Virus record (IMG/VR): IMGVR_UViG_3300009285_000459
Coordinates: 1 to 36,831 of that record
Origin: a virus
Reading direction: 5' to 3' (one strand)
DNA length: 36,831 bases
Both the position numbers and the translations under genes were made by a program. Position 1 is the first letter of the stretch, and each line of letters starts with the position of its first letter. A model generated the notes under the pieces. That model searched no databases. It saw only the letters and a list, made by a program, of their open reading frames with translations, and was not told where the DNA came from. Of this stretch, positions 3,845 to 35,144 are shown piece by piece.

Positions 3845-3863
3845 TTTGATTGATTCTATTAAG

Positions 3864-3887
3864 GCCGGATTTGTTCCGGCTTTTCTT
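3864..3887 (+). terminator. intrinsic terminator of the rightward operon
   Basis: GCCGGA-TTTGT-TCCGGC (3864..3880) followed by TTTTCTTTTA. It lies 20 bases after the stop of the last rightward gene. Confidence 0.9.
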
Positions 3888-3943
3888 TTATTCCAGGTGT
3901 GTTACTAATATATAATTCGTGCCACTATAAGCCAAAATAAGGC

Positions 3944-3973
3944 TTGACAGATATGCACACAAGGGGATATTAT
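3944..3973 (+). promoter_or_regulatory. rightward promoter in the non-coding region
   Basis: TTGACA (3944..3949), 18-base spacer, TATTAT (3968..3973). No gene follows; a terminator-like stem lies about 55 bases after the expected start of transcription. Confidence 0.6.
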
Positions 3974-3979
3974 CCAGAC

Positions 3980-4063
3980 ATAGCGTGATTCCTTCCCTTA
4001 ATTTCCTGTAATTTCCCTTTATGTGTGTGATGTAAACCCCGTGTCAAAGCGGGGTTTCTTCGC
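3980..4063 (+). ncRNA. candidate small RNA of about 80 nt
   Basis: It is bounded by the promoter at 3944..3973 and the hairpin AAACCCCG/CGGGGTTT (4034..4041 with 4050..4057), which is followed by CTTCGCTT. No coding frame of note is inside. The exact 5' end is an estimate from the -10 position. The hairpin could instead serve only to block read-through. Confidence 0.4.
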
Positions 4064-4229
4064 TTCCCCTCACTCTTCACTATCCCATAAACATTAATCT
4101 TTATATTATATCTCTTCCCCATTACATGGTAAGTACTCCCTTCCGTAGGTGTGCCAATACCATTACTTTCAAGGTAAGACTTTTAGTGACACGGTTTCGG
4201 ACGGCTGGGCTTATAATCTCACACTCATT

Positions 4230-4264
4230 TGTAATGATATCAAAACAAATATGTAATCATTACA
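4230..4264. repeat. 9-bp inverted repeat next to palindrome copy 2
   Basis: TGTAATGAT (4230..4238) and ATCATTACA (4256..4264) are spaced by 17 bases and lie one base from the palindrome at 4266. The arrangement looks like a composite operator; the binding protein is not known. Confidence 0.6.
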
Positions 4265-4265
4265 G

Positions 4266-4281
4266 AACTGACGTGTCAGTT
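4266..4281. repeat. 16-bp palindrome, copy 2 of 4
   Basis: AACTGACGTGTCAGTT, followed by TT. The arms match the copies at 1731 and 28751 exactly; only the centre differs. Confidence 0.7.
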
Positions 4282-4422
4282 TTCCATATCTCACAATAAG
4301 GCCATGTTCGTTCAGGACGTATCAACACAAGGGGAAACAATGCCGTGCCCGTCTCCGTAGAGATATGCACGTCTGGCGCATGGTGTGGCGTATGGTCTGA
4401 GGTAGATGTGATTGGTGATTAG

Positions 4423-4438
4423 AACTGATGTGTCAGTT
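4423..4438. repeat. 16-bp palindrome, copy 3 of 4
   Basis: AACTGATGTGTCAGTT, followed by TT. The outer 6-base arms AACTGA/TCAGTT are identical to the other copies, with a changed centre. Confidence 0.7.
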
Positions 4439-4685
4439 TTCGCACGCACGGTGGGGGGGGTGCAATCCTCGTCGGAAGGTCATCCGGCATGGAATCCGTC
4501 CAATTCCGCACCAAGTATATTTTCAGGTTCACATTCCCAAGACAGATAAGACATAGTATTTGTCCAATGGAGTATCCGTAGGGTGAGGAAAGTAGACTTT
4601 AGGGGAGAAGGAATATCCCGGTTTTATCCCGACGGTGGGGAAAGTAGCCTTTTTATATATGAGCGCATGGGCGGGTTGTATTGGG

Positions 4686-7867: not shown

Positions 7868-8094
7868 TTTTTCTTATTCACTTTCTTCTCAAAAGGGATA
7901 ATAAGCTCCTTACTTTCATTTTCAATAAATGCTCCGGTAAAGTCATAATCCGGATATGTCAGCTTCAATTTATCCCATAGTTCTTTATTCGCTTCGCCTA
8001 CGCTTGATAATATATCAAGCAGTGCCGATCTCCTTGTATTCAATATATCAAACGATCTTAAAATTTCTTTATCAAGTTTAATATGCTTGGCCAT
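7864..8094 (-). CDS. hypothetical protein, 76 aa
   Basis: The ATG at 8094 has AAGGAG six bases upstream and is preferred to the frame-opening ATG at 8160, which lies in the leader hairpin. The protein starts MAKHIKLDKEILRSFDILNT, is helical, and ends in a Lys-rich tail. No family recognised. First gene of the leftward accessory block. Confidence 0.65.
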   Translation of the reverse strand: MAKHIKLDKEILRSFDILNTRRSALLDILSSVGEANKELWDKLKLTYPDYDFTGAFIENESKELIIPFEKKVNKKK

Positions 8095-8118
8095 AATATC
8101 TCCTTTTAATTTAACCCC

Positions 8119-8165
8119 GGGGAGTGGGCAATATGGTTGACTCCTACCATACCGCATCAATCCCC
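8119..8165 (-). promoter_or_regulatory. structured 5' leader with nested hairpins
   Basis: On the minus strand GGGGA (8165..8161) can pair with TCCCC (8123..8119). Inside, CGGTATGGT (8154..8146) pairs with ACCATATTG (8137..8129) in nine pairs, two of them G-U, leaving the loop AGGAGTCA. It lies between the promoter at 8190..8218 and the first gene. A regulatory role is inferred from structure only. Confidence 0.45.
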
Positions 8166-8189
8166 GTTGCTAACTTCAAACTTAGATTT

Positions 8190-8218
8190 AATATAATATT
8201 GAATAGGAATAAAGTCAA
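8190..8218 (-). promoter_or_regulatory. leftward promoter of the accessory block
   Basis: TTGACT (8213..8218), 17-base spacer, TATATT (8190..8195). It shares TTGACTTTATTC with the promoter at 1564..1591. Confidence 0.8.
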
Positions 8219-28712: not shown

Positions 28713-28741
28713 AATATACGGAGACTCTATGGGAATGTCAA
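28713..28741 (-). promoter_or_regulatory. promoter of the late structural operon
   Basis: Consensus TTGACA (28736..28741), 17-base spacer and TATATT (28713..28718). The expected start site is about 13 bases before the portal ATG, leaving little more than a ribosome-binding site as leader. A 16-bp palindrome lies ten bases upstream of the -35. Confidence 0.85.
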
Positions 28742-28750
28742 CTAAAATAA

Positions 28751-28766
28751 AACTGACACGTCAGTT
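28751..28766. repeat. 16-bp palindrome, copy 4 of 4, between TerL and portal promoter
   Basis: AACTGACACGTCAGTT with A- and T-rich flanks, so that it also reads as a short terminator stem on both strands. It begins two bases after the terminase stop codon and lies just upstream of the portal promoter. Confidence 0.75.
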
Positions 28767-32649: not shown

Positions 32650-33897
32650 TTAATTTTGTTCGTATTCATACGTTGTACTGTGGTCTGCATATAATTGTTC
32701 AAACCTGTTGCACTCTTTGTTAAACATGACCTCTAATATTCCCACCTTCCCCATCCTGTACTTGGCTACGTTCAGGAATGTTCCGGATGTGTTTTTATAA
32801 ATAAATAGAACCTGATTTGCATCCTGTTCAATGTTCCCCGACTCTCTAAGATGGGATAGTTTTGGGGTTTCGTTCTCGGCCTGTCTGCTTAACTGCGATA
32901 AAGCAAGAACCGGAATACCCAATTGAGCGGCAAGTCTTTTCAAGGAGCCAGTAATTTCCCCAATCTGAATATCCCTGCGCTCCCTGTCCCTGCTTTGTAC
33001 CAATTGGATATAGTCTACGATTATAAGACCGGGTTTTTCTTTCCCCCTTCTTGCCGTGGAAACTATATCCCCGATGTCCGTGATATTATCCCATATGTGA
33101 ATCTTATATTCCGGCAATTCTTTTTCAAACTTATTGTATCTATCCACCTCCCATTCGTCAAGAGTATTGCTTTGAATCTTCATAGAATCTATACCGGATA
33201 ATAGAGATATGAGCTTGAGTTCTATTTCAAGGCCAGTCATTTCCAGAGAATAAAAGTAAACCGGAACCCTGGTCGAGAAGCCTTTCGCAATCTGTAAGGC
33301 AAAGGTGGTTTTCCCCTCTCCGGTACGGGCGGCAAGGATTACAAGGTTGCCTGGACTGAACCCTTTGAACATCATGTCGTAAGGTGAAAATCCGGTTCTT
33401 AGGAACCTTCCCGCAAATCTATCAAGCCCCTCCCCCTGAAACCCCACCTGGACTTTCCCAGAGGCCTCTCCGGTGATTATTTTGGATGTCATGGAGTCAA
33501 CATCGTGGATAATGTCTGCCGTTGACCTCATATCGTGGGTAGCATCCATCCCCCGCTGGTAGGCATCAATCAGTTTGCGCCTCATGGAGAAGTCAAGAAG
33601 CCGTTCAATTGCGCGGTCAAGTCCTCTTACGTCCGGATGTAATCCCATAAGTCGGCCCATATATTCGTCACTCACCTGTTCAAAGTTCTTTGTTGAGATA
33701 AGTTCTGACTTACAAGCCATGAAGCCTGTCTCTAATCCGCGTTCGGTAAGGGTGCGCGCGGCGCGGAATATATATTTATTTCTGGTCAGATAAAAGTCTT
33801 CGTCTCTTAATCTTAATAAGTTATGCGATAAATCAGGTCTTAGAAGAATTGTGGTTAACAGACTTTCCTCGATACCACTATCAAATAGATCGTTCAT
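32650..33897 (-). CDS. DnaB-like replicative helicase, 415 aa
   Basis: The N-terminal domain (residues 1-110, 'EESLLTTILL', 'YIFRAARTL') is followed by the RecA-like motor: Walker A 'ARTGEGKTTFALQIA' (about 188-202), 'YFYSLEMTGLEIELKL', Walker B 'LIIVDYIQLV', 'LALSQLSRQAE' and 'LRESGNIEQDANQVLFIY'. It unwinds DNA ahead of the fork as a hexamer. AGGAGG precedes the ATG, which overlaps the winged-helix gene by 17 bases. No primase or polymerase is present, so these come from the host. Confidence 0.95.
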   Translation of the reverse strand: MNDLFDSGIEESLLTTILLRPDLSHNLLRLRDEDFYLTRNKYIFRAARTLTERGLETGFMACKSELISTKNFEQVSDEYMGRLMGLHPDVRGLDRAIERLLDFSMRRKLIDAYQRGMDATHDMRSTADIIHDVDSMTSKIITGEASGKVQVGFQGEGLDRFAGRFLRTGFSPYDMMFKGFSPGNLVILAARTGEGKTTFALQIAKGFSTRVPVYFYSLEMTGLEIELKLISLLSGIDSMKIQSNTLDEWEVDRYNKFEKELPEYKIHIWDNITDIGDIVSTARRGKEKPGLIIVDYIQLVQSRDRERRDIQIGEITGSLKRLAAQLGIPVLALSQLSRQAENETPKLSHLRESGNIEQDANQVLFIYKNTSGTFLNVAKYRMGKVGILEVMFNKECNRFEQLYADHSTTYEYEQN

Positions 33898-34447
33898 ATT
33901 CCTCCTGTTCTCTTACGTCTTTAAGTATAGCATCTGCTTCCTTGCAAAGTATACTTCTTTTCTTGTTGCTTAAGCAACCCTCTTCTTTTATATTGTTAGT
34001 TAAAGCATTTCCTTTTTTAGTTAAAGCATTTGGTGTCGTTTTCCCGCTTGCCGGTTTAACCGCTTGCCGATTTTCAGACATACGGTGAAGGTCGTTAGGT
34101 TCAAGAACCATCCTTTTCATTTTAACTTTTATGTATATTTTCCCGAACTTGCCCTTCTCTCTTGATTGTTTAATTTCAATTATACCTAAGTCGAGAAGTA
34201 GATTTTTGGCTTTGTCCAACCTCATTCTTCCCCAATCAAGTCCTTGCCGGCAGTACTTATCGGCGGCCCATACGCTGTTAGTTTTTTGCAATATGCAAGT
34301 AAATTGATAATGTTCGTATAGGGCTTTTGCGTCTATGCCAATCTTGCCGTAACTCATAAATAAAGCATACTTGCTTGCGGTCATCCATATAAGTTCGTCT
34401 TCCACGTCCTTCTCTATTATTACATCATTGATATTTTTAATTTCCAT
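33881..34447 (-). CDS. winged-helix replication protein (initiator or helicase loader), 188 aa
   Basis: The N-terminal part 'ALYEHYQFTCILQKTNSVWA' followed by 'LDWGRMRLDKAKNLLLDLGI' and 'GKFGKIYIKVKMKR' is the winged-helix domain found in phage replication initiators next to DnaB-like helicases. The C-terminal part is Lys/Ser/Asn-rich with a final helix and is not clearly of DnaD type. The gene directly precedes the helicase. GGAG lies seven bases upstream of ATG 34447. Confidence 0.75.
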   Translation of the reverse strand: MEIKNINDVIIEKDVEDELIWMTASKYALFMSYGKIGIDAKALYEHYQFTCILQKTNSVWAADKYCRQGLDWGRMRLDKAKNLLLDLGIIEIKQSREKGKFGKIYIKVKMKRMVLEPNDLHRMSENRQAVKPASGKTTPNALTKKGNALTNNIKEEGCLSNKKRSILCKEADAILKDVREQEEYERSI

Positions 34448-34459
34448 ACTTGCTCCAAT

Positions 34460-34557
34460 AAAAAAGGGCCTCTACCTTGCACACCATCTCTGGTTAGTCC
34501 CGTGCAAAATAAAAGCCCTTTGAGTTTTTCAAGCTCACGAAAGGGACTAAGTTTCGT
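34460..34557 (-). ncRNA. structured RNA with loop-loop pseudoknot
   Basis: On the minus strand, hairpin 1 is ACGAAA/TTTCGT (34557..34552 with 34542..34537). A small GAG/CTC hairpin (about 34536..34522) follows, then an outer stem AAAGGGC/GCCCTTT (34521..34515 with 34469..34463) ending in T6. Inside it TTGCAC/GTGCAA is capped by ACCA-GAGA-TGGT, a GNRA-type tetraloop. Hairpin 1's loop TTAGTCCC (34550..34543) is fully complementary to GGGACTAA (34501..34494) in the inner domain. It lies between the HNH-AP2 gene and the replication gene. Function unknown; it may be a regulatory leader, an attenuator or a ribozyme. Confidence 0.7.
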
Positions 34558-34599
34558 CAGCCTGAATTGACACCAATATACTCATGGCATCAATCATAG

Positions 34600-35049
34600 T
34601 CAACTAAAATTTAATACTGCGTACTCACCATGAAGTCTCTTGGCGGCCTCGTCGTAACTCTTGGCCGCCTCGTCCTCTGTCTTAAAACTCCCGAGATAAT
34701 AGAAAGTTTTTTGGTGTACTATCTGCGCTCTGAACCTATTGCCATCTTGTGATATGCCTTTGTATTTTAACCCCCTTCTTCCCCATCTGTTGCTACAATT
34801 CTGAGCGTGAGTGCATATCCGGAGATTGGAACGTCTGTTATCAAGGGTGTTGCCGTTGATATGGTCAACGTCCATTTTTGTAGGGGCGTTGACCATCTGT
34901 CGTGCTAATAAGCCCTGCTTGTTTTTAACGGCAATATAGCCCTTGGAGTTGGTCACATACCATGACCTACCCATGACCAACTCCGCATCAATAGGGTCAA
35001 AGTAAACCTCATACTTATGGCCTTTGTGGGTGGTGATTGTTATTTCCAT
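34600..35049 (-). CDS. HNH endonuclease with AP2-like DNA-binding domain, 149 aa
   Basis: The HNH part has 'MVNAPTKMDVDHINGNTLDN' and 'RRSNLRICTHAQNCSN'. A C-terminal AP2/ERF-like domain has 'YKGISQDGNRFRAQI', 'YYLGSFKTEDEAAKSYDEAA' and 'LHGEYAVLNF'. This is the standard HNH-AP2 homing endonuclease layout. It lies between replication genes as a free-standing gene, followed by the structured RNA. The ATG at 35049 is chosen; a GTG at 35070 would add seven residues. Confidence 0.9.
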   Translation of the reverse strand: MEITITTHKGHKYEVYFDPIDAELVMGRSWYVTNSKGYIAVKNKQGLLARQMVNAPTKMDVDHINGNTLDNRRSNLRICTHAQNCSNRWGRRGLKYKGISQDGNRFRAQIVHQKTFYYLGSFKTEDEAAKSYDEAAKRLHGEYAVLNFS

Positions 35050-35144
35050 GTCACGCTCACGCATCCGCACTCACATTTGTATTCTATCTGAGTCTTAAGG
35101 TCGTTAGATTTGAGCATTTCCTTATTGCACTTGAAACATTTCAT
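35040..35144 (-). CDS. zinc-ribbon micro-protein, 34 aa
   Basis: ATG overlaps the upstream TGA (ATGA). The sequence 'MKCFKCNKEM' plus 'YKCECGCVSV' gives C-x2-C and C-x-C-x-C, a minimal zinc ribbon. It ends by overlapping the HNH-AP2 start by 10 bases. Function unknown; other phages carry similar small zinc proteins near replication genes. Confidence 0.65.
   Translation of the reverse strand: MKCFKCNKEMLKSNDLKTQIEYKCECGCVSVTWK

Follow-up and report, generated by a model that had tools for sequence, protein, structure and literature searches.

What is the compact RNA fold that lies immediately ahead of the replication genes of this phage, and how might it affect their expression? The window, i.e., the whole stretch of DNA that was analysed, covers a virus record in full (36,831 bases). 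It belongs to a phage with nearly all genes on the minus strand, among them a P22-like portal, a terminase, a DnaB helicase, an SSB and NinB-like genes, and its best terminase matches have about 40% identity in IMG/VR; in GenBank phages, the figure is about 25%. The RNA lies in a 152-base gap, flanked by the HNH-AP2 endonuclease gene (34600-35070) and by a helicase-loader-like gene (33881-34447). This gap has the strongest fold per base among the gaps of more than 50 bases between gene calls (folding z of -6.0 for the 152 nt). A first-pass annotation of the same DNA had described there a structured RNA with pistol-like organization, and had suggested that it might also control the termination of transcription ahead of the replication genes.

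Two hairpins and a promoter ahead of the replication operon

The locus includes two hairpins with an 8-base complementarity beyond chance expectation, a promoter of an enriched class and a U-tract. The order on the minus strand is promoter, two potentially kissing hairpins, putative terminator and replication operon, with these features:

34600-35070, minus strand: HNH-AP2 homing-type endonuclease gene, upstream of the RNA, its stop adjoining the promoter
34575-34603, minus strand: sigma-70-type promoter TTGACT-17-TATATT, a strong site of an enriched class in the promoter scan
34564-34597, minus strand: H0, a near-palindrome ATTGATGCC-N11-GGTGTCAAT found by folding, which straddles the -10 box of the leader promoter
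34528-34566, minus strand: hairpin H1 of the fold, with 8 bp, a G.G mismatch, 6 bp and the 9-nt loop CUUAGUCCC
34463-34521, minus strand: hairpin H2 of the fold, the putative terminator, with a stem of about 20 bp, a 5'-side bulge and an ACCA-GAGA-UGGU apical helix
34460-34465, minus strand: U6 tract, into which the GC-rich foot of H2 (GGGC/GCCC) runs
34453-34456, minus strand: Shine-Dalgarno GGAG of the loader gene, read from the sequence
33881-34447, minus strand: helicase-loader-like gene, the first gene 3' of the RNA (weak phrog_186 match, DnaD-like, E 8.6e-4)
32650-33897, minus strand: DnaB-like replicative helicase, the second gene in the operon

Both hairpins fold better than each of their 300 shuffles (z of -4.8 for H1 and -6.4 for H2), and a 121-nt segment has a z of -5.5, with 0 of 200 shuffles as low. 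The fold revises part of the initial description. The 6-bp hairpin reported there exists, but it belongs to the longer H1, with 8 bp below the mismatch, so that the feature extends to 34566. Likewise, the 7-bp outer stem is present, not as a separate helix but as the lower end of the H2 stem, which is continuous and has about 20 bp. An extra hairpin that had been placed in the linker is absent from the minimum-energy fold, because it would use the lower 3' strand of H1. The GAGA tetraloop (34490-34487) and the T6 tail (34465-34460) were both recovered. The tetraloop caps the 4-bp helix ACCA/UGGU at the top of H2, and the bulge, on the 5' side of the stem, has 7 nt (GGGACUA).

H2 has the attributes of an intrinsic terminator: a stable hairpin, a GC-rich foot and a U-tract right after the stem. 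It is longer than typical intrinsic terminators, and its d'Aubenton-type score with the U6 tract, +14.9 for a 51-nt core, comes from a formula that is not calibrated for a hairpin of 51 nt. The stock terminator scan, which takes only loops of 3-8 nt and no bulge, does not list it. Termination at the U6 tract is predicted from sequence. The tract stops 12 nt ahead of the ATG of the loader gene. There is also an AUG inside H2, which opens a 15-codon ORF without a clear ribosome site.

The promoter belongs to a class, TTGAC-17-TATATT, with five members on the minus strand against 0.027 expected and one on the plus strand against 0.01 expected (300 shuffles). In most cases a gene starts within some tens of bases downstream. 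At this locus, transcription is predicted to start at about 34568, on the first paired base of H1, where the hairpin has its foot. Given such a start, the product of the promoter would be H1, H2 and the U6 tract, about 109 nt in all. H0, which as RNA has a folding z of -3.3 and has no second copy in the genome, is possibly an operator, or a (third) RNA hairpin of read-through transcripts.

Complementarity between the H1 loop and the H2 bulge

The first-pass annotation had drawn attention to the loop TTAGTCCC (34550-34543, minus strand) and to its exact complement GGGACTAA (34501-34494), and both are where it placed them. The two strands of the potential kiss are:

34543-34550, minus strand: kissing strand 1, UUAGUCCC, in the H1 loop, with an unpaired probability of about 0.99 at all transcript lengths
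34494-34501, minus strand: kissing strand 2, GGGACUAA, in the 5'-side bulge of H2, with an unpaired probability of 0.70-0.95 at all transcript lengths

Eight of the nine bases of the H1 loop are complementary to strand 2, perfectly so over the eight. The two 8-mers are unique in the genome, and pairing between them has a predicted energy of -11.9 kcal/mol, with no penalty for the kiss included. For random segments with the base composition of the genome, 9 nt for the loop and 8 nt for the partner, the chance of eight complementary bases is p = 3.5e-5, and that of at least seven is p = 3.2e-4. A descriptor of the whole arrangement (H1 of at least 6 bp, kiss of at least 8, H2 of at least 8 pairs) had 0.0375 matches per shuffled genome when searched on both strands of 480 shuffled genomes. 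A looser one (kiss of 7, H2 of 5) had 2.4 per shuffled genome, and weak examples of kissing pairs are also numerous in real phage DNA. Kissing architecture is in general cheap; the instance at this locus is strong.

We folded the transcript co-transcriptionally, using prefixes in 3-nt steps. Both strands of the kiss were mostly unpaired at every length, and hence the nested fold never blocks the kiss. As an antiterminator helix, the only obvious competitor is CCCUUU/AAAGGG, which is about 20 kcal/mol weaker than the main fold and was set aside on this energy, though a switch might also be kinetic or protein-mediated. The kiss could form in vivo, where it may have a regulatory role.

Candidate roles: gate, free small RNA or plain terminator

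Two readings of the RNA are the probable ones, and they are not mutually exclusive: it gates the replication genes, or it is a small RNA that acts by itself. We lean towards the first: a promoter-proximal terminator, or attenuator, that gates the replication genes and releases a short kissing RNA. The succession of promoter, hairpins, U-tract and start codon supports the termination control that had been suggested for the replication genes. It has the promoter placement of a leader attenuator, with a promoter upstream of the putative terminator and none between the latter and the gene. For the loader, DnaB, SSB and NinB-like genes, the leader promoter is the closest one upstream. A second such unit lies at 7432-7337 on the minus strand, where a promoter, a GC-rich hairpin (TCCCCCGTTCCCGTGCGGGGGA), ATTTTTT, a Shine-Dalgarno sequence and an ATG precede a gene of 56 codons. 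Since it repeats the layout, a terminator between a promoter and its first gene would occur twice in this phage.

In such a mechanism, RNA polymerase would start at about 34568 and make H1, then H2. It would mostly terminate at the U6 tract and free an RNA of about 109 nt, nearly all of it H1 and H2. The H1 loop and the H2 bulge could kiss once GGGACUAA has emerged from the polymerase, when the 3' strand of H2 is still to be made, and this early contact might bias the folding of H2, stabilise the released RNA, or both. Transcripts that read through would serve as mRNA of the helicase loader, DnaB, SSB and NinB-like genes. A stronger version, in which the co-transcriptional kiss between loop and bulge decides if the terminator fires and thereby sets the timing of replication without a dedicated protein, is speculative and in our view doubtful. 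If the kiss did control termination, it would provide a compact, possibly protein-free timing of replication genes, and the intrinsic terminator would be one that incorporates a tertiary contact. Should the locus prove to be just a small RNA or a plain terminator, it would still be an RNA gene that is discrete and open to test, in a lineage of phages with distant terminase matches.

Intrinsic terminators act as leader attenuators in phages; those that precede the lambda replication genes O and P are an example. The similarity is in position: the terminator separates the replication genes from an early promoter, which makes expression dependent on read-through. In contrast to lambda-type leader terminators, the RNA described here has a long bulged stem with a bulge exactly complementary to the loop of the preceding hairpin. 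Neither a nut-like site nor a known antiterminator was identified.

The main rival to the gate is a stand-alone gene for a phage small RNA whose targets in trans are RNA or protein of the host or of the phage, and whose position is incidental. Such a gene would explain why the unit is complete and compact, with a start and a stop that coincide with the structure. Lambda OOP, for instance, is likewise a small transcript from a region close to replication or lysogeny genes, but it is antisense to cII, whereas the RNA of this phage is sense to the replication operon and immediately ahead of it. Both OOP and PreS are lambda small RNAs that show that phage RNAs of similar size can be found near such genes (PMC12197685). 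Yet, there is no further promoter between the RNA and the replication operon, which would then need read-through of the same transcript. Nor is there an identifiable target, the loop 8-mer having neither another copy nor another complement in the genome. We regard this reading, when taken by itself, as unlikely.

One might also think of a plain terminator between transcription units, accompanied by a 5' hairpin, with an accidental complementarity and a kiss devoid of function. Terminators are common between phage units, and chance meets loose kissing descriptors several times per genome. However, the 8-bp match is limited to the loop and the bulge (p = 3.5e-5), and a terminator of this kind would more naturally come before the downstream promoter than after it. 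We find this explanation rather improbable.

Relatives and known RNA classes

The searches of IMG/VR, GTDB-species contigs and GenBank phages found no homologous RNA, and for this reason the fold stands as a single sequence. Comparison with phages by blastn gave nothing beyond brief chance matches, located at the query's 3' end, and we judged as chance all matches of the DNA-pattern searches for the paired 8-mers in IMG/VR and for the cores of H1 or H2. One GTDB match (L110) was rejected because it is without the fold. A single-sequence covariance model matched only the window itself; a weak plus-strand match within it overlaps H2 and is the reverse complement of the latter. Searches with the loader, DnaB and portal gave no relatives in IMG/VR. 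Terminase alignment gave relatives with 39-41% identity (L115-L117), but the terminase relatives that were fetched had no match to the loader or to the RNA model, and DnaB was found in only one (L122, 28%).

In an unrelated viral contig (L098:556-620, minus strand), both 8-mers occur at the identical spacing of 41, in a region that resembles a terminator, with a GroES-like gene before it and a T5 following. This is probably a coincidence: the H1 stem there swallows CCC and leaves a loop of only UUAGUC. We also considered whether the RNA is part of the HNH element, and rejected this idea. Five relatives of the HNH gene were located, each in a different and unrelated context, and in three of them the next gene follows at once. 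The RNA therefore does not obviously belong to the homing element.

In placement and two-hairpin form, the closest analogue is putL of phage HK022. To our knowledge, no U-tract follows the put elements themselves. The element putL has two stem-loops in about 70 nt, directly downstream of an early promoter, and put suppresses termination via the zinc-binding domain of the RNA polymerase beta' subunit (PMC9378689). By analogy, the nascent two-hairpin RNA of our phage might bind RNA polymerase and enable read-through of its own and later terminators. It differs from put in that its hairpins can join by an 8-bp kiss. But it ends in its own predicted terminator and has no Rfam match, and a put-like antiterminator is very improbable.

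The pistol-type order claimed at first stands in one respect. The succession of elements (hairpin, helix strand, pseudoknot strand, hairpin, closing strand) is similar, and the pistol topology is present, with a pseudoknot that links the loop of P1 to the left P2/P3 junction. The identity as a pistol does not stand. The Rfam search proposed with the first-pass annotation gave no match to this family: there was none to any family at gathering level in the whole window, only noise at the locus with E up to 10, and nothing in the record for the pistol model RF02679 with E up to 10. In pistols, purine 32 and G33 precede the pseudoknot strand, and G40-C41-G42 come after it. These are active-site residues (PMC6154101), but the strand is flanked here by C and CC (...CAC-GGGACUAA-CCA...). 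Pistol ribozymes also have a strict right-hand junction of 2 nt, with a modestly conserved GU, that carries the cleavage site (PMC4604425). In our RNA, UGGU runs straight into GUGCAA, leaving a P3-P2 junction of 0 nt, or of 1 if the A-U pair opens. The resemblance is thus confined to a 5'-hairpin loop that forms a pseudoknot with the strand joining two stacked helices, as the P1 loop of pistols does with the left P2/P3 junction (PMC4604425), and both stem and pseudoknot are longer in the phage RNA. Although pistols are common near phage genes (PMC4604425), a self-cleaving ribozyme of this type or a relative would need neither a U6 tail nor a start site at its foot, and with the model, the junction and the active site all against it we dismiss it as extremely improbable.

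Some observations concern other regulatory regions of the genome. The gaps at 1904-2675 and 3845-4685 in the minus-strand gene set are long and have several promoter-like sites. The leader of the promoter at 8218 (8075-8218, minus strand) has a 10-bp hairpin, GCGGTATGGT/ACCATATTGC, with G-T pairs, which lies just before the gene start and has GGAG within its loop. Finally, the 16-bp palindrome AACTGACRYGTCAGTT is found four times (1731-1746, 4266-4281, 4423-4438 and 28751-28766), one copy having a single change, which makes eight matches on both strands against 0.84 expected by chance. It may be a repressor operator, because its last copy (28751-28766) is directly upstream of the -35 box of the promoter at 28741, ahead of the portal gene.
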